64,000 bases of DNA from Aestuariivivens insulae. GTDB taxonomy: Bacteria > Bacteroidota > Bacteroidia > Flavobacteriales > Flavobacteriaceae. Positions within the stretch are counted from its first letter, which is position 1. Each line of letters starts with the position of its first letter. The stretch is taken from NCBI RefSeq assembly GCF_022662195.1, contig NZ_JAKMCS010000009.1, forward strand, positions 1-64,000, read 5' to 3'. The notes under the pieces were generated by a model that did no database searches, had not been told where the DNA came from, and saw nothing but the letters and a program-made list of their open reading frames with translations. A program made the translations under genes and the position numbers. Shown here piece after piece: positions 50,532 through 62,775 of this stretch.

Positions 50532-50777
50532 ATGAATTATTATGAACTTATTGGTTGGGTTGGGGCTGCATCTTATTTACTTTCCTATTTTTTGTTGAGT
50601 GCTAATAAACTAAAACACAATAGTGTAACATATCAGTTAATGAATGTACTAGGGGGGCTCTTTTTAGTGATCTGTGCCTATGATTCTAAAGACAAACCTA
50701 ATTTGTTTACCAATTTTGTTTGGATGTGTATTGGAGTAGTAGCGTTGATATCAATTATTAAAAGACGTAGACGATAG
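50532..50777 (+). CDS. Small four-helix-like membrane protein (CBU_0592-type, tentative)
   Basis: 81 residues, mostly hydrophobic: GWVGAASYLLSYFLLSANKL, then NVLGGLFLVICAYDSK and a final FVWMCIGVVALISIIKRRRR with a basic tail. The pattern resembles the CBU_0592-like family of small membrane proteins. Function unknown. Its 3' end overlaps the TetR stop by 27 bases on the opposite strand. Confidence 0.7.
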   Translation: MNYYELIGWVGAASYLLSYFLLSANKLKHNSVTYQLMNVLGGLFLVICAYDSKDKPNLFTNFVWMCIGVVALISIIKRRRR

Positions 50778-51374
50778 CTTATGTTTAAAGTTCAACATGT
50801 TTAAAGCCGCTTGTTTGTAACGTTCAGTGTTTTCTAAATAAGCTTTATCATCCGTATCAAATAAAGATAAATAGTAATAAGCACCTTCCACCAACACGAA
50901 AATAAGTTCAGCGGTTTCCTTGGGATCTTTAACCTCTATAATACCATCTTTTTTAGCATCTTCAATAACTTCTGCTAAAAACTCCCTTAAAGAGTCATGC
51001 AAATCCTTAAACGCAGATTTTATATTGTCGTTTCTAAAAATAAGGGTGTAACAGCTGTAAAAAACACCGTCGTCTATTAGATTATTCCAATCTCGGGAAA
51101 ATAAATTATCTACTGTTTTTATTAATCTAACATCACTGCTCTCCTCATTATTTATGGTATAAAGAGACTTATAATTTTCCAATATATAATTTATTAACCC
51201 AAATAATAAGGCCTCTTTTGTTTTGAAATAATGTAATATTAAACTGGTGTTTATTCCCATCACTTTAGCAACTTTGGCTATTGAGGTATTCTCTAATCCC
51301 TCTTGTTTAGCGACATTATAGAAGGCTTCTATAATTTCCCTTTGTCTTACTTTTTTTAAACTTTTTCTACCCAT
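50751..51374 (-). CDS. TetR/AcrR-family transcriptional regulator
   Basis: 207 residues. N-terminal TetR helix-turn-helix (TSIAKVAKVMGINTSLILHY, about residues 26-45) followed by an all-helical ligand-binding domain of unknown specificity. It is divergent from the susC-like gene across 127 bases that contain a good palindrome, so it is the likely local repressor of the island. Confidence 0.9.
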   Translation of the reverse strand: MGRKSLKKVRQREIIEAFYNVAKQEGLENTSIAKVAKVMGINTSLILHYFKTKEALLFGLINYILENYKSLYTINNEESSDVRLIKTVDNLFSRDWNNLIDDGVFYSCYTLIFRNDNIKSAFKDLHDSLREFLAEVIEDAKKDGIIEVKDPKETAELIFVLVEGAYYYLSLFDTDDKAYLENTERYKQAALNMLNFKHKLSSTSFNN

Positions 51375-51426: not shown

Positions 51427-51446
51427 TTGACTGACTGTTCAATCAA
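51427..51446. promoter_or_regulatory. Imperfect 20-bp palindrome, likely TetR operator
   Basis: Half-sites TTGACTGAC and TTCAATCAA (reverse complement TTGATTGAA) match at 7 of 9 positions. It lies 52 bases from the TetR start and 55 bases before the susC start, directly upstream of a TATATTAG sequence that could be the susC -7 element. The position fits control of both divergent genes. Confidence 0.55.
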
Positions 51447-51501: not shown

Positions 51502-54500
51502 ATGAAAACAGTAAACTTTTTGATTCTTGTAAGCAACAGAACAAAAGGTATTATCTTAAACAAATCTGGCTTTAATAAAAGCTTGTTGGCTTTGCTGATG
51601 ATGTTTATGATAAACCAAAGCGTATTTGCTCAAGAAAAGATTGTAACAGGGACTATTATTGATGGTGAAACACAGCAGCCACTTCCCGGAGCAACAGTAT
51701 TAATTAAAGGAACATCAAATGGGACGTCTACCGATTTTGATGGTAATTTTTCCTTAAAAGTAACTTCTAAAGATGCTATTATAACGGTGTCGTATGTGGG
51801 GTATGAAACCAAAGAAGTTTTAGTAGGTTCCCAAACCGAAATCACAATTACTCTGGCAGTAGATTCCAATGCCTTGGATGAAGTGGTGGTGGTAGGTTTT
51901 GGAACACAGAAGCGTGAAAACATATCGGGAGCTGTAGTGCCTGTAGATATGAAGAAGCTTGAAGACAGACCAACAGCTAATGTTTCACAAAGTTTACAGG
52001 GAACGGTTGCGAACTTAAATGTGACCTTTGCCAATGGAGCACCGGGAGGCTCGGCTTCCATTAATATTAGAGGGGCAGGTTCCATAGGGGGATATGGAAG
52101 TAGTGCACCTTTGATTGTTATAGATGGAGTTCCTTCTAGTTCAGGAGATTTAACGCGGTTAAACCCTGACGATGTGGAGTCCATGTCGGTTCTTAAGGAT
52201 GCGTCTTCTGCAGCTATATATGGTGCTAGGGCGGCTTATGGTGTATTATTGGTGACTACTAAAAAAGGAAAGAAAAATAAAGTGACTTACTCAAACTCTT
52301 TTATTTGGGGAAAGCCAACCGTAACGCCTAAACCTATTACAGATCCCTATATTTACTCACGGCTGTTGGATATTTCAACCAGTAACACGCCTTGGAATTA
52401 TGTAAGTTTTGATGAAGATACTTATGCCTGGGCAAGAGCGCGGTCTGATGATCCAACAGTGCCCAATGTAAGACTGGATCCTAATAGCCCAACACAATGG
52501 CAATATATGGGAGACAATAATTGGAATGACTATTTCTTTGATAAAGTAGCCTATTCCGAAAATCACAATGTGTCTATAAGTGGTACAAAGGATATCATTA
52601 GCTATTATGTCTCTGCCAATCATACCAAAGAGAATGGCTTGAACCGTTTAACAACAGATGATTGGACACGAGATGCATTGCGATCTAAAATTAACGTAGA
52701 ACCTTATTCCTGGATGGATTTTGAGAACAATACATTCTTATCTTTAACAGAGCGAAGAACTCCAACCTATGGTTTAACCAATGTATATAATTTAAGGCCA
52801 ACTGATGTGGCAAAAAATCCTGATGGTACCTGGGCTAACACGGCAGCGGGACATGCTGCAGCCAGAATGATTGATGGAGGAAAAACAATTGTTGATTATA
52901 CGACGGTACAAACAACAAATAAGTTAAACTTATATTTTTTCAACAAGGATCTAAAACTAACCGGGGAATACACTTTTAAAAAGGAGTATAATAAAGACCA
53001 TTGGGATGGAACCAAATACCAAATTGGTTATGGTCCCGACGATATAAGGGAAAATGAAAACTCTGATTATGCTTACGAACGTATGCGAGTTAATAAATAC
53101 TCGGTACTTAACGTTTATGCCACATACGATAAAACCTTTAACAAGCATAAATTCAATGCAGTTGTTGGGTATAACAAAGAAGTTAACGAATATGAAAGTT
53201 TTTGGGCGCAACGCACGGGGTTATTAACTTCTATTCCAAACATTGCTTTGGCTTCGGGCGAGGATACAGTAGGGTATGATTTTTCGGACTGGGCGGTACA
53301 GGGCATATTTGGACGCCTTAATTATATTTATGATGAGCAATTGGTATTCGAATTCAATGGACGTTATGATGGGTCTTCAAGATTTCCAAAAGAGGGACGT
53401 TATGGATTCTTTCCTTCGGTGTCTGCCGCTTGGATTGCCAGCAAGAACTTTAGTGAATCACTAAAGAATACTATAAACCATTTTAAGATTAAAGGTTCTT
53501 GGGGAGCTCTAGGAAATCAAAATGCTTTTTTATATGCTTACTATAACCCATTACCTAAACCCAGAGAGTCTTCCTATTTAATTGGTGGTGATTATCCAAC
53601 AAGAGTAAGTGCTCCAGGTTTGGCAATTGATCCCACTAATTATTCTTGGGAACGTGTAGTGACAACTAATTTAGGTGTTGAATTGGGGTTTTTCGATAAC
53701 ATGTTGAGTATGGACTTATCTACCTATTATAGAAATGTATATGATATGTTACAGCCTGGAGTAGAGTTGCCGGCTGTATTAGGGACAAATCCTCCTTTTC
53801 AAAATTCAGCAGATCAGCAAACCATAGGTTGGGAAGCGACTATTAATTATACAGATAGTTTTACAGTTGGTGGAAGCCCATTAGATATTAGTGCCTCTAT
53901 AGTACTTTCAGATAATCAAACAACTATCACACGATTTAAAAATGATAGTAAATTATTTTCTGGATGGAGAGAAGGTCAAAAAAGAGGAGAGATTTGGGGA
54001 TTGGAAAGTGATGGTTTCTTTCAAAGCCAAGAAGAAATAGACAATTTAGATGAGACGGCTATTATCCCTTGGGGGGCTCTTACTATTGTGCCTGGTTGGC
54101 CTAAATTTGTTGATCAGGATGGTGATGGTAAGATTTTACGAGGAAGCTCAGAATTAGACCCTAAAGATTTAAAAGTTATAGGAAATAGATCACCTCGTTA
54201 CAACTATGGATTTAATTTTAATGTATCATGGAAAGGATTTGATGTTAGTGGCTTTTTACAAGGCGTAGGGAAAAGAGATTATTATCCAACACATTATTTG
54301 TTCTGGGGACCATATCAACAACCTTATGCCAATGTATATCCACATTTGCTGAATTTTTACAGAGCAGCAGATGATAGTCCAGCTTTAATGGCACAACATT
54401 CACAGTCGTATATAGACGCAGGCTTGGCCAATGCCAATACAACTAATGTAGAATATCCGGTATTACAAAGTTGGTTGGCCGATAGAAATTATGGTTCTGG

Positions 54501-54756
54501 TTTGGCAATTCCTAATACGAAGTACTTATTAAGTGCAGCTTATTTAAGGTTAAAGAACGTAACCGTAGGATATTCTGTTCCAGATAAATTGTTAGATAAA
54601 CTACACATTTCAAAATTAAGATTCTTTGTTACAGGAGAGAATATTTTTGAGTGGTCAGATATTAAAGGGTTTGTTGATCCTGAGGCTACGGGAGCAGAAG
54701 GTTATGCTTATCCGTTTCAACGTAAACTTTCCATGGGCTTGAATGTTACATTTTAA
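51502..54756 (+). CDS. SusC/RagA-family TonB-dependent outer membrane transporter
   Basis: 1,084 residues. N-terminal signal (long, positively charged, ending near NQSVFAQ), a carboxypeptidase-D-regulatory-like domain (about 45-120, VTGTIIDGETQQPLPGATV), a plug domain with DEVVVVGFGTQKRENISGA and SIGGYGSSAPLIVIDGV, then a 22-strand-type barrel. SusC proteins import ligands too large for porins with the aid of TonB. The following genes encode SusD and phosphoesterases, suggesting a phosphorylated ligand. No sigma/anti-sigma pair is nearby. Confidence 0.93.
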   Translation: MKTVNFLILVSNRTKGIILNKSGFNKSLLALLMMFMINQSVFAQEKIVTGTIIDGETQQPLPGATVLIKGTSNGTSTDFDGNFSLKVTSKDAIITVSYVGYETKEVLVGSQTEITITLAVDSNALDEVVVVGFGTQKRENISGAVVPVDMKKLEDRPTANVSQSLQGTVANLNVTFANGAPGGSASINIRGAGSIGGYGSSAPLIVIDGVPSSSGDLTRLNPDDVESMSVLKDASSAAIYGARAAYGVLLVTTKKGKKNKVTYSNSFIWGKPTVTPKPITDPYIYSRLLDISTSNTPWNYVSFDEDTYAWARARSDDPTVPNVRLDPNSPTQWQYMGDNNWNDYFFDKVAYSENHNVSISGTKDIISYYVSANHTKENGLNRLTTDDWTRDALRSKINVEPYSWMDFENNTFLSLTERRTPTYGLTNVYNLRPTDVAKNPDGTWANTAAGHAAARMIDGGKTIVDYTTVQTTNKLNLYFFNKDLKLTGEYTFKKEYNKDHWDGTKYQIGYGPDDIRENENSDYAYERMRVNKYSVLNVYATYDKTFNKHKFNAVVGYNKEVNEYESFWAQRTGLLTSIPNIALASGEDTVGYDFSDWAVQGIFGRLNYIYDEQLVFEFNGRYDGSSRFPKEGRYGFFPSVSAAWIASKNFSESLKNTINHFKIKGSWGALGNQNAFLYAYYNPLPKPRESSYLIGGDYPTRVSAPGLAIDPTNYSWERVVTTNLGVELGFFDNMLSMDLSTYYRNVYDMLQPGVELPAVLGTNPPFQNSADQQTIGWEATINYTDSFTVGGSPLDISASIVLSDNQTTITRFKNDSKLFSGWREGQKRGEIWGLESDGFFQSQEEIDNLDETAIIPWGALTIVPGWPKFVDQDGDGKILRGSSELDPKDLKVIGNRSPRYNYGFNFNVSWKGFDVSGFLQGVGKRDYYPTHYLFWGPYQQPYANVYPHLLNFYRAADDSPALMAQHSQSYIDAGLANANTTNVEYPVLQSWLADRNYGSGLAIPNTKYLLSAAYLRLKNVTVGYSVPDKLLDKLHISKLRFFVTGENIFEWSDIKGFVDPEATGAEGYAYPFQRKLSMGLNVTF

Positions 54757-54767
54757 ATGAGAAAATA

Positions 54768-56549
54768 ATGAAGATTATGAAAAATATACATTTATTAATA
54801 TTAATTGTTACGGTAGCTTTTATAAGCTGTAATGATGACTTTTTAGACACACCGCCTCAGACGCAAATTGTAAAAGAGAATTATTTTACTTCTGAAGAAC
54901 ATTTACAACTGTACTTAAACGGGTTGCATTCGCTACCTGGTTATGGCATGTTTTTGAGTGATCAAGGAACCGATGATATAGCTACTACGGGAGCTGTTGA
55001 AATCAAAAACATAATGATAGGCACACCAACTGCAGAAAACATAGGAGGGGGATGGAGTTGGAGTTATTTAAGGGATATTAATTTCTTTTTAGAGAACTTT
55101 GATAAGGCCGAGGTTAATGAAGACGCTAAAAAGCATTACGAAGGTGTCGCCAGATATTATAGAGCCCAATTTTACTTTAGCAAGGTAAAGCGCTTTTCGG
55201 ATGTACCTTGGTATGGTAAGACTTTATCAACTAGTGATGAAGATCTCTATAAACCAAGAGACCCTCGTGCTCTTGTGGTAGATAGTATTATAAGTGATAT
55301 TCAGTTCGCCTCTAATCATATTAAAGAAGATGTTGCTCTAGGAAATATACACAAATGGGCAGCGGTTATGTTACAGGCCAGAATAGCATTGTATGAAGGA
55401 ACTTTCAGGAAATACCATCCAGAATTAAGTTTAGAAGGTACAGCTAACCGTTTCTTACAGATAGCTAGAGATGCCGCTAAAGAGTTAATGGATTCAGGGG
55501 AATTTTCTTTACATAATACGGGTAATCCTGAAACAGATTATATGGACATGTTCCAATCGGAGGTTTTAGCCGATAATCCTGAAGCAATTTTAGTGAATGT
55601 TTATGATACGGAAAAAGATAAGTTTAGTGGGAGTTATACTGTATTTGGTGACTATGAACAAAGTCCTTCCAAATCTTTGATGAACAGCTATCTAATGGCT
55701 GATGGTACACGTTTTACAGATCAGTCTGGAGCAGACACAATGACTTTTGTAGAAGAATTTCAGGATAGAGATCCTAGAATGTCTCAAACCTTTGTGTATC
55801 CAGGGTGGGTTTGGGCAGGAGACACAAATCCTTATGTTACCGAGTTTAACAGAAATTTTACTGGATATCACCAGCTTAAAGGGTATAATAATTCAACTGA
55901 AGGAGCAGGTGTTGACGTCGCGGTTTATCGCTATGCCGAAGCATTGTTAGTTTATGCTGAAGCAAAAGCTGAGTTAGGAGAACTGTCTCAGGGCGATTTG
56001 GACTCATCGATCAATCTTTTAAGAGCGAGGGCTGGCCTTCCTGATTTAAATATAGTAGCGGCAAATGGTGATGTGGATCCGGTTATGGCTGCAAGATTTC
56101 CAAATGTATCAGGAACCAATCAAGGTGTTATATATGAAATAAGACGAGAAAGACGTGTTGAGTATGCAGCCGAAGGTTTTAGGTTTGATGATATGATGCG
56201 TTGGGCAGCTGGAAAAGAGTTTGAGATTTTACCAATTGGCATGTATATTCCTGGGTTAGGTAAATACGACATGACGGGGGATGGTATTGAGGATATCGCT
56301 ATTATTGCCAGTGGAGAGGACATTCCTTCTCCTAAAGAACAAAATTCTCTTGGAGAGGATTTAATATATTATAAGGCAGGGCCTTTTGGTGATTCGGGAG
56401 CTTCTATTTATCTATCCAATGGGACATCTGGAAATATGGTAACAGAAAATGCTGTTAGAACATTTGTAGAGCCTAAATATTATTACAGACCTATTCCTCA
56501 ACAACAAGTTGATTTAAATCCAAATCTAACACAGATTATGGGGTGGTAA
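54768..56549 (+). CDS. SusD/RagB-family outer membrane lipoprotein
   Basis: 593 residues from ATG 54768 (or 54777). Lipobox FISC places the lipid at Cys 22. Family segments are TPPQTQIVKENYFTSEEHL, LRDINFFLENFDKA, RAQFYFSKVKRFSDVPW, and the C-terminal RRERRVEYAAEGFRFDDM. SusD caps the SusC barrel and binds the ligand. It follows the transporter after 11 bases and is in the same transcript. Confidence 0.94.
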   Translation: MKIMKNIHLLILIVTVAFISCNDDFLDTPPQTQIVKENYFTSEEHLQLYLNGLHSLPGYGMFLSDQGTDDIATTGAVEIKNIMIGTPTAENIGGGWSWSYLRDINFFLENFDKAEVNEDAKKHYEGVARYYRAQFYFSKVKRFSDVPWYGKTLSTSDEDLYKPRDPRALVVDSIISDIQFASNHIKEDVALGNIHKWAAVMLQARIALYEGTFRKYHPELSLEGTANRFLQIARDAAKELMDSGEFSLHNTGNPETDYMDMFQSEVLADNPEAILVNVYDTEKDKFSGSYTVFGDYEQSPSKSLMNSYLMADGTRFTDQSGADTMTFVEEFQDRDPRMSQTFVYPGWVWAGDTNPYVTEFNRNFTGYHQLKGYNNSTEGAGVDVAVYRYAEALLVYAEAKAELGELSQGDLDSSINLLRARAGLPDLNIVAANGDVDPVMAARFPNVSGTNQGVIYEIRRERRVEYAAEGFRFDDMMRWAAGKEFEILPIGMYIPGLGKYDMTGDGIEDIAIIASGEDIPSPKEQNSLGEDLIYYKAGPFGDSGASIYLSNGTSGNMVTENAVRTFVEPKYYYRPIPQQQVDLNPNLTQIMGW

Positions 56550-56582
56550 CCTTATTGACATACTAATTTTAAAAAGTATATA

Positions 56583-57413
56583 ATGAAAAAATTAAAATAT
56601 TTATTTATCCTAGTATTGGCCCTGTCCTTTTTAGGGTGTGAAGAAACGCCAGAGCTTTATGATTTTGAACGGTATAAGTTTGTTTCCTTTATTAGTGAAG
56701 AGGAATCGGTAATGGAAAATGCAGGAGATCATGACATCTTTTTAAGATATGATGGCAGTACATTAGAGGAGGATTTTACAGTAACTCTAAGTGTTGGGGG
56801 AACCGCTCAAGAGGGGACAGATTATAATGTAGAATCTAAAACGGTAGTGTTTAAGGCTGGAGAAATTAAATCGGAGCCATTTACAATTGATGTCATCGAT
56901 AATTTACTAGACGGAACAGAAGACTTAACTATGGAAATAACTATAGAAAGTGTTAGTAACCCGAATATCGATATTGGGTTAGGTATCGTAAATCAGTCTA
57001 ATAAAATAGAAGTTGTAACTATATTAGACAATGAGTGTAGTGAAGATATCGATATTTTTGCCACAGATTTAAATTGTGCAACGCCTTGGACGCCGCATAC
57101 CGTAACAGGAACTATTGACGGAAGTGTTTTAACCCTAAGTGGAAATCTGGTTGATTATTCTCCCCTTTCAGTTGCAAACCTAGAAGTGAATCTAACCCCT
57201 GTGGAAGCAGGTGCTAAAATTGGATCAGCATCGTTTAACGACTATTATGTAGGATTGGTAAGCGATGGATATGTTTATCAATTTAGACAGGCAGGAGAAG
57301 GGACTTACGATGTTTGTAACAAAACAATCACTATATCAATTGAAGTGTATTGGGAATCAGGAGGAAGCTGGGCCTATTGGTATACTTCAGACAATATAAT
57401 TACTATACCATAA
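56583..57413 (+). CDS. Calx-beta-like surface lipoprotein of the SusCD locus
   Basis: 276 residues. Lipobox FLGC at the N-terminus (about C19). Residues about 40-150 resemble a Calx-beta domain (VTLSVGGTAQEGTDYNVESK). The C-terminal half is a beta-rich region of unknown family with paired cysteines. Proteins in this position act as surface ligand-binding partners of SusD. A terminator (57457-57479) follows. Confidence 0.78.
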   Translation: MKKLKYLFILVLALSFLGCEETPELYDFERYKFVSFISEEESVMENAGDHDIFLRYDGSTLEEDFTVTLSVGGTAQEGTDYNVESKTVVFKAGEIKSEPFTIDVIDNLLDGTEDLTMEITIESVSNPNIDIGLGIVNQSNKIEVVTILDNECSEDIDIFATDLNCATPWTPHTVTGTIDGSVLTLSGNLVDYSPLSVANLEVNLTPVEAGAKIGSASFNDYYVGLVSDGYVYQFRQAGEGTYDVCNKTITISIEVYWESGGSWAYWYTSDNIITIP

Positions 57414-57456
57414 ACCAGTATTGAAAATTAGTATTTTGAGTTAGTTTAGTTATTAG

Positions 57457-57479
57457 AAAAGGGAGGTAGCCTCCCTTTT
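57457..57479 (+). terminator. Intrinsic terminator/attenuator after the lipoprotein
   Basis: Stem AAAAGGGAGG (57457-57466), 3-base loop, and CCTCCCTTTT (57470-57479), followed by CTTT. It stands between the SusCD-lipoprotein genes and the first phosphoesterase, so it could partly uncouple their expression. Confidence 0.7.
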
Positions 57480-57495
57480 CTTTAAATCCAAAACA

Positions 57496-58593
57496 ATGTT
57501 AAATAAAAAGACTGCCCTAAAATTTATCTTTGCTGCATTTGTGTTTGTAACAAGTTGTAAATGCAGTAATGAGGACAATGAAAAAAAACAACCTGATGAA
57601 AACACAACCCCCGAAGCTATGGTAGATTTTAACGGGGAATTAAAGGTACTCGCATTAAACATGTGGCATGAAGGTACAGCGGTTAATGGTGGGTTTGATG
57701 CCATAGCCGACATAATACTTCAAACGGAAGCAGATATCGTAATGTTATGTGAAACGGCTAATTATAACGAAACCATTTTTAGCAATAGAATAAAAGATAA
57801 AATGAAAGCGTTGGGAGTGGCGTATTATACCTTTCATTCAGCAAAGTCGTCAACAATCTTATCTAAATATCCAATCGTTTCAAAACCAGCAATAGGAACA
57901 ACTTCACTAACAAAATGTATTGTTAAATTAGACGAATCCAAACAATTGGCTGTCTATGGAGCCCATTTAGATTATACACATTACGCCTGTTACTTACCTA
58001 GAGGATATGATGGTATTACCTGGAAAAAATTACCAGAGCCAATAACCAATATCAACGAAATTTTACAGCAAAATCTAGACTCAGGCCGCGATGAAGCCAT
58101 TGAAATTTTTGTAAATGACGCAGCAGAAGAACAAAAAAAAGGAAATATGGTGCTTTTGGCAGGGGATTTTAATGAGCCTTCCCACTTAGATTGGACAGAA
58201 ACCACAAAGGATTTGTACGATCATAATGGTACGGTAGTTCCTTGGCATAATAGTGTTACCTTACAGGAAAGCGGTTATTTAGATGCCTATCGCGTAAAAT
58301 ATCCCGATCCAGTAACCCATCCAGGGTTTACATGGGCCGCTTTTAATACAGATGTCCAACTATCTAAGTTGGTTTGGACTCCAGAAGCCGATGATAGAGA
58401 TCGAATAGACTTTATCTATTTTAATCAAGATGCGCGTTTAACTTTAAACGATGTTATTATCGTTGGTCCATCTGGATGTATTGTAAATGGTCAAGGAAAA
58501 GAGGATACTTCTTTACAGGATAAATTTTTGTTGCCACAGGGCAAATGGCCCACAGACCACAAAGGCGTATTGGCAACCTTTAAAATAGAATAA
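57496..58593 (+). CDS. Endonuclease/exonuclease/phosphatase-family lipoprotein, first copy
   Basis: 365 residues with lipobox VTSC. Catalytic EEP motifs are in order: LALNMWHEG, VMLCETANYN (Glu ligand), GAHLDY, LAGDFNEPSHLDW (D and N), DRDRIDFIYF and the final PTDHKGVLATF (D-H). These enzymes cleave phosphodiester or phosphomonoester bonds with magnesium. Related to the second copy at 61852 (both have SHLDW and the VPW stretch). Substrate unknown. Confidence 0.9.
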   Translation: MLNKKTALKFIFAAFVFVTSCKCSNEDNEKKQPDENTTPEAMVDFNGELKVLALNMWHEGTAVNGGFDAIADIILQTEADIVMLCETANYNETIFSNRIKDKMKALGVAYYTFHSAKSSTILSKYPIVSKPAIGTTSLTKCIVKLDESKQLAVYGAHLDYTHYACYLPRGYDGITWKKLPEPITNINEILQQNLDSGRDEAIEIFVNDAAEEQKKGNMVLLAGDFNEPSHLDWTETTKDLYDHNGTVVPWHNSVTLQESGYLDAYRVKYPDPVTHPGFTWAAFNTDVQLSKLVWTPEADDRDRIDFIYFNQDARLTLNDVIIVGPSGCIVNGQGKEDTSLQDKFLLPQGKWPTDHKGVLATFKIE

Positions 58594-58603
58594 GACAAAC
58601 ACA

Positions 58604-59833
58604 ATGAAGAAACTATTCAACCTTATATTCATTTTAGCAGTCTGTTTTGGACATGCCCAAAAAAAAGACACCAAAGTACTTTTTGTAATAGTTGACGGTA
58701 TTCCTGGCGATGTGATTGAAAAGGTACCAACACCAAACTTAGACAAAATAGCGGCTATAGGAGGATATACGCGAGCTTATGTAGGCGGGGGAAGAGATAG
58801 CTATTCACAAACACCAACCATATCGGCGGTAGGCTATAATAGTTTGCTTACAGGCACTTGGGTAAACAAACATAATGTTTGGGGAAATAGCATTAAGAAG
58901 CCCAACTATAACTATTGGACCGTTTTTAGAATGGCTAAGGAGTATAGACCAGAATTAAAAACCGCTGTGTTCTCTACTTGGTTGGACAACAGAACAAAAT
59001 TAATAGGAGAAGGACTTCCAGAAACAGGTCATGTAAAAATGAATTATCATTTTGATGGTTATGAGCATGACACCATTGCTTTTCCTCATGGCACAAGTAG
59101 CCATTATATTCAAAACATAGACAAACATGTAGTGTCTAAGGCTTTTGATTGCATTAAGGATAATGCTCCCGACCTCTCTTGGCTATACTTAGAGTATACC
59201 GATCATATGGGACATGAGCACGGAGATGGAGACCTGTTTTACAATGCTATTAAGGAGGCAGATAAACAGATAGGAAAAGTATGGGAAGCCATCACATATA
59301 GACAAAAACAATTTAATGAACACTGGGAAATATACATCACTACAGACCATGGACGAACAAAGGAAGATGGAAAACATCATGGTGGACAAAGCGATAGGGA
59401 ACGCCTAACTTGGATAGTGACTAATACCCAAAACTTAAACAGTTATTTTAAAACACATCAACCAGGCATTGTTGATATCTTGCCAACCATGTTACAATCC
59501 TTAAACATCAAACCCAAAAAAGAGTTGCTTTGGGAAATAGACGGTGTGCCTTTAACAGGAGAGGTTTCATTAGTAAATGCTAAAGCGGTTAAAAATGACA
59601 ACACACTACATGTAACTTGGGACGTTATAAACACCAAAGGAAAAGTAAAAATCTGGGTGGCTACAACCAATGAGTTTAATACCGGAGGAACCGATAGTTA
59701 TAAATTATTAGATCAAGTAGCCATCAAGAAAGGAGAAGCCTCAATTGATATTTCACAATTGCCTTCAAAAATATATAAGATTGTTTTAGAAACAAAGTAT
59801 AATACAGCAAACACTTGGGTGGTAGAGAAATAA
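58604..59833 (+). CDS. Exported nucleotide pyrophosphatase/phosphodiesterase-like alkaline phosphatase-superfamily enzyme
   Basis: 409 residues with a signal peptide (MKKLFNLIFILAVCFGHAQ). The NPP-type zinc site residues are visible: the first aspartate in VIVDGIPGD, nucleophile threonine in TPTISAVGYNSLLTG, D and H in EYTDHMGHEHGDGD, and TTDHG plus HHGGQ. NPP enzymes hydrolyse pyrophosphates or phosphodiesters such as nucleotide sugars, dinucleotides or glycerophosphodiesters. A C-terminal beta domain of about 100 residues follows. Next gene is a calcineurin-like esterase. Confidence 0.88.
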   Translation: MKKLFNLIFILAVCFGHAQKKDTKVLFVIVDGIPGDVIEKVPTPNLDKIAAIGGYTRAYVGGGRDSYSQTPTISAVGYNSLLTGTWVNKHNVWGNSIKKPNYNYWTVFRMAKEYRPELKTAVFSTWLDNRTKLIGEGLPETGHVKMNYHFDGYEHDTIAFPHGTSSHYIQNIDKHVVSKAFDCIKDNAPDLSWLYLEYTDHMGHEHGDGDLFYNAIKEADKQIGKVWEAITYRQKQFNEHWEIYITTDHGRTKEDGKHHGGQSDRERLTWIVTNTQNLNSYFKTHQPGIVDILPTMLQSLNIKPKKELLWEIDGVPLTGEVSLVNAKAVKNDNTLHVTWDVINTKGKVKIWVATTNEFNTGGTDSYKLLDQVAIKKGEASIDISQLPSKIYKIVLETKYNTANTWVVEK

Positions 59834-59876
59834 TGATGATTTGTTGTTCGTTTTAAACTATTCGGTTTAAATAAAT

Positions 59877-59922
59877 GTCAGTTCGAGTATGCCGACATTT
59901 ACTGTCGGTATGTATCGAGAAC
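59877..59922. repeat. Dispersed 46-bp palindromic repeat, copy 2
   Basis: Read on the minus strand it has the same plan as 1566-1611: GTTCTCGATAC, ATACCGAC, a 7-base loop, GTCGGCAT, then ACTCGAACTGAC. Flanks are conserved while the stem differs at paired positions, so hairpin structure is conserved. It sits in the 170-base gap upstream of the metallophosphoesterase. Confidence 0.78.
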
Positions 59923-60005
59923 AGTTTTCCGATAGGTTTGGATACAAGTACTTATCAAATCGAACAATAGATTATATAAAAGATTTAATATTCAAAAAGA
60001 AGAAA

Positions 60006-60929
60006 GTGGAAAAGAAATTTAACGAAAAACGGAGATCGGCTTTAAAAAAAATAGGGGCATCTATGGGGATGCTAGCTATGTCTCCCATTGTGCTGTCACA
60101 AGAAAGTTCCATTAACAAAAAACGTAAAAAGCTTTTAAAAGTAGCACATATTACAGATATCCATATTTCTACTGATAATAATGCTCCTGAGCGTTTTAAA
60201 AAATGCCTGGAAGACATAAAAAAGCATCAAGTTGATTTTTTTCTGAATGGGGGCGATACCATTATGGCTGCCGATTATGGGCATATTACAAGAGAGCAAG
60301 TGATCAAGCAATGGGATGTTTGGAAGGAACTTAGAAAAGAATTTGACACATACCATATGTACAGTTGCTTGGGTAACCATGATATGTGGTGGGCAGCACC
60401 AGATAAGAGCGACGCTATGTATGGCAAAGACTATGTTGTAAAGAACCTGGAAATCCCCAAAAGATACTATAGCTTCAAGAAAAACGATTGGCATTTTATT
60501 GTTTTGGATAGCAATAATAAAAATGCAGGGGCGTTGGATGATGAACAACGCGATTGGCTGGAACAGGAACTGCAAGCTTTACCACATAAAGCCTTTGTAT
60601 TGGTTATGACACATTACCCTATTTTGGGAGTGAGTACCATTCCATATGGCGGTAGCCATACCGATAGTAAGTATATTACCAAATTATTCTATAAGCACAG
60701 AGACAAAAGCATACACTGCATTAGTGGCCACATGCACCTATTGGATAAAGCAGTCTATAACGATGTGAGTTATTATTGTAATGGTTCCATGAGCGGTTTC
60801 TGGTGGGGTGTAGGCGATGAAGAATCGGCAGGAAAATGTTGGTATCATGAAACACCTCCAGGATATACTATCATCGAGTTATTTGACGATGGAAGCCTTA
60901 CAAACACTTATTATCCACATGCTTATTAA
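60006..60929 (+). CDS. Exported calcineurin-like metallophosphoesterase
   Basis: 307 residues from a GTG at 60006 (VEKKFNEKRRSALKK). The longer open frame from ATG 59889 reads through a dispersed repeat and is unlikely. Twin-arginine-like RRSALKK precedes a hydrophobic core (GASMGMLAMSPIVL). Metallophosphoesterase motifs HITDIHIS (D-x-H), NGGDT (G-D), CLGNHDMWW (GNHD/E), MTHYPI and SGHMHL are intact. Phosphomonoesterase or phosphodiesterase. It belongs to the island operon. Confidence 0.87.
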   Translation: MEKKFNEKRRSALKKIGASMGMLAMSPIVLSQESSINKKRKKLLKVAHITDIHISTDNNAPERFKKCLEDIKKHQVDFFLNGGDTIMAADYGHITREQVIKQWDVWKELRKEFDTYHMYSCLGNHDMWWAAPDKSDAMYGKDYVVKNLEIPKRYYSFKKNDWHFIVLDSNNKNAGALDDEQRDWLEQELQALPHKAFVLVMTHYPILGVSTIPYGGSHTDSKYITKLFYKHRDKSIHCISGHMHLLDKAVYNDVSYYCNGSMSGFWWGVGDEESAGKCWYHETPPGYTIIELFDDGSLTNTYYPHAY

Positions 60930-60962
60930 GCATGCAAATATTTATTCCAAAGAACTATAGAC

Positions 60963-61781
60963 ATGTTAAGACAATCCAAACCAATTTACTTATATATATA
61001 CATTTTTTTGATAAGTTTAACATCATGTAAAGTACAGCAAAGTACCGTAAGTACAGCACAAGATGCTCCAATGGTATTAAAAGGGCCAGCCTGGGCGGCG
61101 GCATGGCAACAAAAGGCAGGAGAATATAAAGCCTTATGCCATCAAGCCTATAACTTGGCACATATGAGATTGGACGATTTAATACAGCAGCCCTTCGATA
61201 AACCATTGGCAATAGTCACAGATATAGACGAAACAGTATTGGATAACAGTCCATATCAAGTGCATCAAGCCATACATAATGCAGAGTATAGTGATCCTTC
61301 ATGGGTAGAGTGGACCGCAAGGGTAGATTGCGATACCGTTCCAGGTGCATTATCGTTTTTTCAATATGCAAAAAGCAAAGGCGTAGCTGTTTTTTATATC
61401 ACCAACCGTCTCGAAGAAGAAAGAGGAGCCACATTAAAGGATTTACAGCGATGGGGGTTCCCTGATGCGACAGATGATCATCTGACCATGAAAACTACTA
61501 CGTCCAGTAAAAAACTCAGAAGAGAAAAAGTATCTAATAACTATGAAATCCTTTTATTGCTAGGGGATAACCTTAGTGACTTTAGTGCTGTTTTCGATAA
61601 AAAGCCGTTGGAAGAACGCAATGATAAGGTACGGGAAAATGCATCTAAGTTTGGGAATCGATTTATTGTATTTCCAAATGCCATGTATGGCGATTGGGAT
61701 GGTGCTATCTATAAACACCAATATAGTTTGCCTCCACAAGAAAAAGAAAGCATCATTATGCAAGCACTTAAAAAATACTAG
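60963..61781 (+). CDS. e(P4)-type acid phosphatase (5'-nucleotidase) lipoprotein
   Basis: 272 residues with lipobox LTSC (about C21). HAD-family class C acid phosphatase: DIDETVLDNSPY with nucleophile and acid aspartates, FYITNRLEEERG, and LGDNLSDFS. Family members dephosphorylate nucleoside monophosphates and nicotinamide nucleotides on the cell surface. This could be the last dephosphorylation step in the locus. Confidence 0.92.
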   Translation: MLRQSKPIYLYIYIFLISLTSCKVQQSTVSTAQDAPMVLKGPAWAAAWQQKAGEYKALCHQAYNLAHMRLDDLIQQPFDKPLAIVTDIDETVLDNSPYQVHQAIHNAEYSDPSWVEWTARVDCDTVPGALSFFQYAKSKGVAVFYITNRLEEERGATLKDLQRWGFPDATDDHLTMKTTTSSKKLRREKVSNNYEILLLLGDNLSDFSAVFDKKPLEERNDKVRENASKFGNRFIVFPNAMYGDWDGAIYKHQYSLPPQEKESIIMQALKKY

Positions 61782-61851
61782 AGTGATTCTATATAAAAAC
61801 CAATATTTTCAATAAATAAGTTATATTGACATTAACAATAAAGCCATAAAG

Positions 61852-62775
61852 ATGAAAAAAATTACGTATTGCCTTTTAGTTTTAACCTTGTTTCTAGTAA
61901 GTTGCAAAACACAAGAGAAGCCTTATAATTTTAAGATTATGGCATGGAACATACTACATGGCGGAAATGATATACCTAACGGAAGCGATCATGTTATTGA
62001 AATAATAAGTCAAGTAGATCCCGATATCATTCTGATGGTCGAAACCTATGGATCGGGCAAAAAAATAGCCGATTCACTCGGGTATCATTTTCATTTAATT
62101 GCACCAGAAGGAACTGCACTCGACAATAAAAATGTTAATTTGTCTATCTTTTCCAAATTTCCTTTTGGTAAACGTATAGATACAGAGCATCCTTTTTATT
62201 TGGGAGGAAGAGAGGTCGTTATTAAAGACCAAACCATTAGACTTTTTTCAAATTGGTTTCATTATTTACCTTGGGATGATGCACCAGAAACCATGGGTAA
62301 GACCTCAGAGGAATTGCTGGCTTGGGAACAGACAGGGCCTAAGTATGATATGATTCAAAAAGTACTGCCATATCTCAAAGAATATGCATCACAAACAGAT
62401 AGCATTCCAATGATCTTTGGAGGAGATATGAACACACCATCGCATTTAGATTGGAAAGAAAGTACCATGGCTATACACAATAATTTAGTAGTGCCTTGGT
62501 ATGCTACCAAAGTATTGGAAGACATGGGGCTGATAGATACTTATAGAACCCTAAACCCTGATGTGATGTCACATCCCGGAATAACTTGGGATACTAAAGG
62601 CAAAAAAGATGAACATAGAATTGACTATATCTACTACAAAGGACCAAAATTGAAAGCTGTTAAGTCGGAATCCTATAAAGCACACTTAGGAGACCCTCTT
62701 AAAATTAACGGTGTGGAAATTCCATATCCGTCAGACCATGGCTTTGTAGTGACCACATTCCAGTTTGTAGAGTAA
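61852..62775 (+). CDS. Endonuclease/exonuclease/phosphatase-family lipoprotein, second copy
   Basis: 307 residues with lipobox VSC (LFLVSC). EEP motifs IMAWNILHGG, IILMVETYG, FGGDMNTPSHLDW, HRIDYIYY and PSDHGFVVTTF are in order. It parallels the first copy at 57496 but lacks that protein's longer N-terminal spacer. Last gene of the island before menE. Activity is phosphoester cleavage by family; substrate unknown. Confidence 0.9.
   Translation: MKKITYCLLVLTLFLVSCKTQEKPYNFKIMAWNILHGGNDIPNGSDHVIEIISQVDPDIILMVETYGSGKKIADSLGYHFHLIAPEGTALDNKNVNLSIFSKFPFGKRIDTEHPFYLGGREVVIKDQTIRLFSNWFHYLPWDDAPETMGKTSEELLAWEQTGPKYDMIQKVLPYLKEYASQTDSIPMIFGGDMNTPSHLDWKESTMAIHNNLVVPWYATKVLEDMGLIDTYRTLNPDVMSHPGITWDTKGKKDEHRIDYIYYKGPKLKAVKSESYKAHLGDPLKINGVEIPYPSDHGFVVTTFQFVE

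Follow-up and report, generated by a model that had tools for sequence, protein, structure and literature searches.

In Escherichia coli, the effector of the repressor BetI is choline, and published betI boxes are palindromes of the ATTGACG/CGTCAAT type. Clusters that join betI with a choline-freeing esterase are known already, as are loci of the phosphate-scavenging PUS (PusCD) type, which join the outer-membrane pair SusC/SusD (SusCD) with phosphoesterases; what appears to be new here is SusCD under an apparent BetI-like switch with choline genes. We found no description of a SusCD locus with choline or phosphocholine, or with a BetI-like switch, in the literature searched, whose coverage was incomplete. 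The locus lies in a 64,000-nucleotide window of Aestuariivivens insulae (bases 1-64000 of the 191-kb contig C33 of genome G000, 4.23 Mb; our labels for genomes, contigs and loci begin with G, C and L), where SusCD, a Calx-beta lipoprotein and five predicted exported phosphoesterases are encoded at 51502-62775. These are two endonuclease/exonuclease/phosphatase (EEP)-fold proteins (EEP1 and EEP2), an alkaline-phosphatase-superfamily phosphodiesterase (NPP), a calcineurin-like metallophosphoesterase (MPE) and an e(P4)-family acid phosphatase. Across as many as 397 genomes of its family, the Flavobacteriaceae, we compared the neighborhoods of homologues of EEP1, EEP2, Calx-beta, TetR and NPP. The explanation that we favor, as probable though well short of certain, is a locus for the utilization of choline phosphoesters under a BetI-type, choline-induced switch; the gene set suggests that choline-phosphate compounds are harvested and not nucleotides, and in relatives these compounds may be sugar chains decorated with choline.

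The locus starts upstream of susC, at a divergent TetR-family gene (50751-51374, minus strand) 127 bp away and at a palindrome of the betI-box kind, TTGACTGACTGTTCAATCAA (51427-51446), in the divergent promoter region between them. The original prediction had placed the eight open reading frames of the block correctly, and all were recovered in position and strand with clear family matches, but it had missed this gene and operator upstream. We found that the 20-bp palindrome, with the consensus TTGATTGAACGTTCAATCAA, is common to the TetR/susC or TetR/NPP intergenic regions and is conserved in 16 other TetR loci, being weakest in L131. Apart from the window copy, no sequence with one mismatch or fewer to the pattern occurs in the 4.2 Mb of the genome. 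When the matrix was built without the window site, this site scored best in the window at 26.4 bits, ahead of an overlapping frame (10.3 bits) and of the next separate site (7.2 bits), and the E. coli betI-betT site was found by that matrix too; when it was built from eight distant loci only, the window site again came first (22.7 bits; overlapping frame 10.7, next separate site 8.8). Applied to 112 kb of E. coli K-12, the matrix from the eight distant loci placed the betI-betT intergenic site TTGATTGGACGTTCAATATA first (22.7 versus 12.8 bits for the next site), and this site agrees with the consensus at 17 of 20 positions. In G398, TetR lies beside NPP and the susC operon is 10 kb away; there, a separate copy of the palindrome precedes susC, 93 bp from the start of the gene. 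No strong site was found at EEP2 or NPP loci without TetR (L074, L076, L168, L170 and L171), and none at the Allomuricauda locus, which has a FecR-type gene instead of TetR. Hence, given the pattern across loci, the copy before susC in G398 and the lack of a strong site where TetR is missing, the SusCD-phosphoesterase operon is very probably under the control of this regulator.

The regulator matches Pfam TetR_C_37 (147 bits) and, weakly, the BetI-type C-terminal domain TetR_C_6, and its best NCBIfam match is BetI (52.6 bits). BetI is also the best NCBIfam family for all six TetR proteins of these loci that were scanned, the homologues scoring 50-64 bits. Searching G000 with E. coli BetI returned the window TetR gene as the sole match, and in each of the nine genomes searched, G000 included, the best match was the TetR gene of this locus. 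Judged from its sequence, the regulator is a BetI-like protein, not a BetI member by the curated cut-off. It has been asked of such a protein here whether it could instead sense acyl groups, as bacterial FadR-type TetR repressors do, within a system for phospholipids or lysophospholipids; among the homologous TetR proteins, that of L135 matches FadR weakly (37.5 bits), and the outer half-site is also present in FadR-type boxes. We regard this as very improbable, since BetI always outscores FadR, the E. coli betI-betT site fits the consensus as closely as described above, and no lipase or fatty-acid gene was recognized among the identified genes of these loci, betBA being present instead in three of them.

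The choline-oxidation gene betA exceeds its family cut-off in only 3 of the 397 genomes (823-831 bits versus a cut-off of 732; the next best scores 526), and all three copies (G225, G398 and G080) sit in versions of this locus, in three genera and in the arrangement TetR-betB-betA-sodium symporter. The betB copies of L092 (768 bits) and L041 (775 bits) clear the family cut-off of 593, and the G080 copy is 83% identical to that of L092. If the three betA genes were placed at random, the probability of all of them landing in the nine genomes that have a close TetR would be 8e-6, and direct adjacency puts it lower still. In G225, a BCCT transporter directly follows e(P4). From the regulator family, the operator and the gene partners, we infer that the ligand of the TetR regulator is choline. 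Phospholipid head groups were on the list of substrates first proposed for this block, and regulator, operator and the betB-betA-symporter set in three relatives point to choline.

The genes of the block, all on the plus strand, are separated by 11, 33, 82, 10, 33 and 70 bp, apart from the NPP-MPE gap. They encode a SusC/RagA-type TonB-dependent transporter (51502-54756; TIGR04056, 786 bits), a SusD/RagB lipoprotein related to solved SusD homologues (54768-56549; PF07980, 175 bits), the Calx-beta surface lipoprotein at the place usual for a glycan-binding lipoprotein (56583-57413; PF03160), EEP1 (57496-58593; PF03372), NPP with a signal peptide and a C-terminal beta domain (58604-59833; PF01663/PF01676), MPE (probably 60006-60929; PF00149), e(P4) (60963-61781; TIGR01533, 299 bits versus a cut-off of 216) and EEP2 (61852-62775; PF03372). 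The export signals predicted for all five enzymes were also read by eye in the sequences: lipoboxes in EEP1 (followed by acid-rich sequence), e(P4) and EEP2, a signal peptidase I (SPI)-like signal in NPP and the twin-arginine signal RRSALKK in MPE. The active-site residues of EEP1 are invariant in 15 homologues, those of EEP2 across its homologue alignment and the metal residues of MPE across its homologues. The gene set is not a chance assembly, because the same genes recur with TetR in other genera, as a neighborhood search proposed at the outset revealed, and because the alignments of EEP, NPP and MPE show no variation at the metal and catalytic positions. The Calx-beta protein has eight good matches (E below 1e-50) across the 397 genomes, all within this locus type. 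Terminators were of no use, as the block holds fewer than expected by chance, and G000 as a whole has 26 SusD-type matches.

One boundary within the block had to be moved. The annotated ATG of MPE at 59889 lies in a REP-like palindrome (59889-59912, core 59891-59909; GCCGACA..TGTCGGT plus flanking arms) between NPP and MPE, and every orthologue begins at the position of the GTG at 60006, with the twin-arginine signal. Hence, as the palindrome fills the upstream extension, MPE probably starts at GTG 60006. A near-identical second copy of the palindrome lies on contig C29 of the same genome (L062:2537-2555; GCCGACATTTACTGTCGGT, arms TCGAGTAT/ATGTATCGAGAA); the element produces a false upstream start and has no part in the mechanism.

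SusCD with phosphoesterases and no carbohydrate-active enzyme (CAZyme) is the composition of the window locus and also the published hallmark of PUS clusters in Flavobacterium, so we weighed a general role in scavenging phosphate, in which phosphate starvation would turn the locus on and a mixture of organophosphates, nucleotides and nucleic-acid fragments among them, would be taken up and dephosphorylated. The PUSI phosphodiesterases include calcineurin-like PF00149 enzymes, 5'-nucleotidases occur among e(P4) enzymes and EEP folds are nuclease-like, all of which would suit such a role. However, phosphate starvation has no use for a dedicated BetI-like regulator with its operator or for the linkage to betBA and a symporter, the glycosidases and N-acetylhexosamine (HexNAc) kinases of relatives point to a defined conjugate, and no nucleoside uptake gene is among the identified genes of the loci; we consider general scavenging unlikely. 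As for the nucleotides, nucleic acids and nucleotide sugars originally put forward as substrates, we found nothing in their support. The EEP1 model (pLDDT 77) has ExoIII/TDP2 as its nearest fold with TM-scores of about 0.45 on the query, a fold common to many phosphoesterases, and the neighborhoods give DNA no support, so nucleotide or nucleic-acid scavenging was rejected. Sequence searches of the PDB with EEP1, EEP2 and MPE gave no specific relative. Degradation of glycosylphosphatidylinositol (GPI) anchors (on the idea that MPE resembles PGAP5 and EEP resembles PGAP2IP) was also rejected, as a PGAP2IP match was found only in a neighboring EEP of G006, not in EEP1 or EEP2. Capture and stepwise hydrolysis of an organophosphate, as first proposed, fits the gene anatomy but is too broad a description. 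Elsewhere, an EEP1-like domain also occurs within a 1,600-residue protein of G000 (contig C29; L055:9465-14252), and a Snuella EEP1 paralogue (L042:9806-15190) stands beside a GH92 mannosidase, CotH and DUF1501/PSCyt genes, another pairing of EEP with a glycosidase.

NPP is present at 16 of 17 TetR loci, with only a weak relative in G209. ENPP6 is the only mammalian ENPP with a serine nucleophile and choline specificity, and its serine and the tyrosine at +4 are needed for hydrolysis of choline diesters (PMC4757880). NPP is like ENPP6 in this pair: Ser74 at the nucleophile position and Tyr78 at +4 are invariant in 15 sequences and occupy the places of ENPP6 Ser71 and Tyr75. The C/S-x-P-x-R motif of sulfatases is absent from NPP. 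We also noted a decayed copy of this core enzyme in G212 (L172:8285-9318), a homologue with three stop codons.

The related loci fall into three layers. In the minimal layer, of eight genomes (L132-L139), TetR is divergent to NPP-SusC-SusD and nothing else is present; NPP divergent to TetR and followed by SusCD was found in 8/8 of these distant loci. The middle layer (the window, G353 and G398) has no glycosidases and consists of TetR, SusCD, Calx-beta and EEP1 together with two to four other phosphoesterases. Glycosidases come in with the richest layer, in seven relatives: GH2 in Snuella, Zhouia and G021; GH109 and GH2 in Tamlana, with a nucleotidyltransferase, a HexNAc-kinase-like APH protein and NagB-PIG-L; GH20 in Allomuricauda; GH109, GH95 and GH110 in G225; and GH95, GH110 and GH2 with an FGGY kinase in G209. 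These richer relatives sometimes also carry choline or HexNAc uptake genes. The closest version among named records is that of Snuella sedimenti, whose EEP1 is 77% identical. Two SusCD types (PF07980 and PF12771) occur in all layers, which indicates that the transporter was exchanged while TetR, Calx-beta, EEP1 and NPP stayed. In two genomes of the same genus, EEP2 stands alone at the chromosomal site of the locus (L074:9574-10494 and L075:9641-10561), between menE and a gene that reads from its sequence as CPBP-protease-like; this may represent loss or a pre-insertion state.

The absence of glycan enzymes had been taken as a mark of this block. It holds for the window genome, G353 and G398, and no glycosidase, lyase or sulfatase was found in the window block or among the genes identified as far as about 67.5 kb along the contig, but the seven relatives carry GH2, GH109, GH95, GH110 or GH20, and we rejected a purely glycosidase-free system on this ground. 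Glycosidases in the richer loci suggest a glycan as the carrier of the choline ester, and the substrate is probably phosphocholine on glycoconjugates. Annelids, nematodes, cestodes and fungi are known to have glycoconjugates with phosphocholine, and in a marine snail phosphocholine is carried on galactose linked to core fucose (PMC4891362); the snail structure would suit GH2 plus GH95, which is suggestive only. More tentatively, and with less than even confidence, these loci could form a new class of SusCD system that acts on zwitterionic glycans or glycolipids bearing phosphocholine, of the sort found in molluscs, annelids and nematodes, with transport, phosphocholine removal, deglycosylation and choline oxidation under a BetI-type switch and with the window copy as a streamlined form.

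The same glycosidases and HexNAc kinase and deaminase genes could also serve a phosphorylated glycan whose phosphoester is not choline (phosphoethanolamine, a sugar-1-phosphate or a teichoic-acid-like diester), the TetR protein having changed its inducer; EEP2 adjoining GH20, GH123 and HexNAc genes in G006 and the window genome being without betA would agree with this. Yet betB-betA and the symporter are kept within the locus in three genera, among them G225 with its three glycosidase families, the operator is unchanged in the window, and the minimal loci have no glycosidase at all, so that a non-choline ester seems to us quite unlikely. Near the window, we saw a protein with a CarboxypepD_reg domain and TonB plug joined to a von Willebrand YfbK-type domain just past its end (L037:16118-18436; contig C33, 64.1-66.4 kb). 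A second SusCD locus of G000 on contig C29 (about 88-108 kb; L062:4692-20000 and L063:19-4813) has FecR, four sulfatases and two GH2 genes, the latter homologous to the GH2 within the Snuella version of the window locus.

Our observations are the set of genes, a TetR-NPP-SusCD core that recurs, linkage to betBA in three relatives and the operator with its E. coli match; from them we infer that the operon is repressed and that choline induces it, and likewise the substrate and the sequence of cleavage steps. With no inducer, the BetI-like repressor on the 20-bp palindrome would block both divergent promoters, and cytoplasmic choline would release it and turn on the divergent susCD operon. SusCD with the Calx-beta and EEP1 lipoproteins at the surface would capture and import a choline-phosphate ester, which could be a choline phosphodiester (glycerophosphocholine, for example) or a glycan or glycolipid that bears phosphocholine. 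Diesters would be cut in the periplasm by NPP, which has an SPI-type signal, by MPE, which has a Tat signal, and by EEP2, these locations, like those at the surface, being read by eye, and e(P4) would convert phosphocholine into choline and phosphate. In relatives, choline would then be taken up by BCCT or the sodium symporter and oxidized to glycine betaine by BetA and BetB, and in the richer ones glycosidases would dismantle the attached sugar.

Several findings weigh against choline phosphoesters as the substrate and choline as the signal. BetA and BCCT are absent from G000, where the nearest BetB-like enzyme reaches only 40% identity, so choline may there be excreted, handled by an unrecognized enzyme or serve as a signal only. 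The regulator misses the BetI equivalog cut-off (118 or 201 bits), its likeness to BetI is mostly in the DNA-binding half, and TetR-type fatty-acid regulators have somewhat similar boxes. Unlike ENPP6, with which its overall similarity is low, NPP has Ala in place of the choline-pocket Tyr72, and its model (pLDDT 62, from six sequences) is too poor for a structure search or for placing the last zinc ligand and the pocket positions Tyr157 and Tyr188. Five genomes carry NPP outside this TetR context. In G006 (L076:1364-16604), which has no TetR, EEP2 is found with a nucleotidyltransferase, an APH kinase, NagB-PIG-L, GH20, GH123 and a sulfatase, and with the second EEP noted above; hence, some of the enzymes may act on other phosphoesters.

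If the choline explanation is true, the SusCD transporters of Bacteroidota gain a substrate class that we did not find described, choline-phosphate esters, together with a named inducer. The recycling of phosphocholine from lipids and invertebrate glycans by marine bacteria, through which they could obtain phosphate, nitrogen and glycine betaine, an osmolyte, would become accessible to genetics. A further gain would be enzymes for stripping phosphocholine off glycans, for which analysts now use hydrofluoric acid (PMC4891362).

Compared with known systems, the locus is like E. coli betIBA/betT in having a TetR repressor gene divergent from an uptake gene with a palindromic box of the same sequence between them, and three relatives (G225, G398 and G080) share betB and betA behind the repressor; unlike that system, the divergent partner is SusCD with phosphoesterases rather than a choline permease, and the window copy has no betB or betA linked to its regulator. 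As in the betC-type choline-O-sulfate clusters of R. pomeroyi and S. meliloti (PMC12442346), a BetI-type regulator stands over an alkaline-phosphatase-superfamily esterase that would free choline, but the esterase there is a sulfatase, whereas here it is a phosphodiesterase and is joined by SusCD. The Flavobacterium PUS/PusCD clusters (PMC8115612) likewise combine SusCD with phosphodiesterases or phosphatases without CAZymes; they differ in being induced by phosphate starvation, and no BetI-like regulator, betBA or choline is described there, the word 'choline' being absent from the paper. With polysaccharide utilization loci, the locus shares SusCD and a surface lipoprotein, and its seven richest relatives share glycosidases too, whereas the window copy has no CAZyme and the regulator is TetR/BetI-like rather than SusR, a hybrid two-component system (HTCS) or an extracytoplasmic function (ECF) factor.

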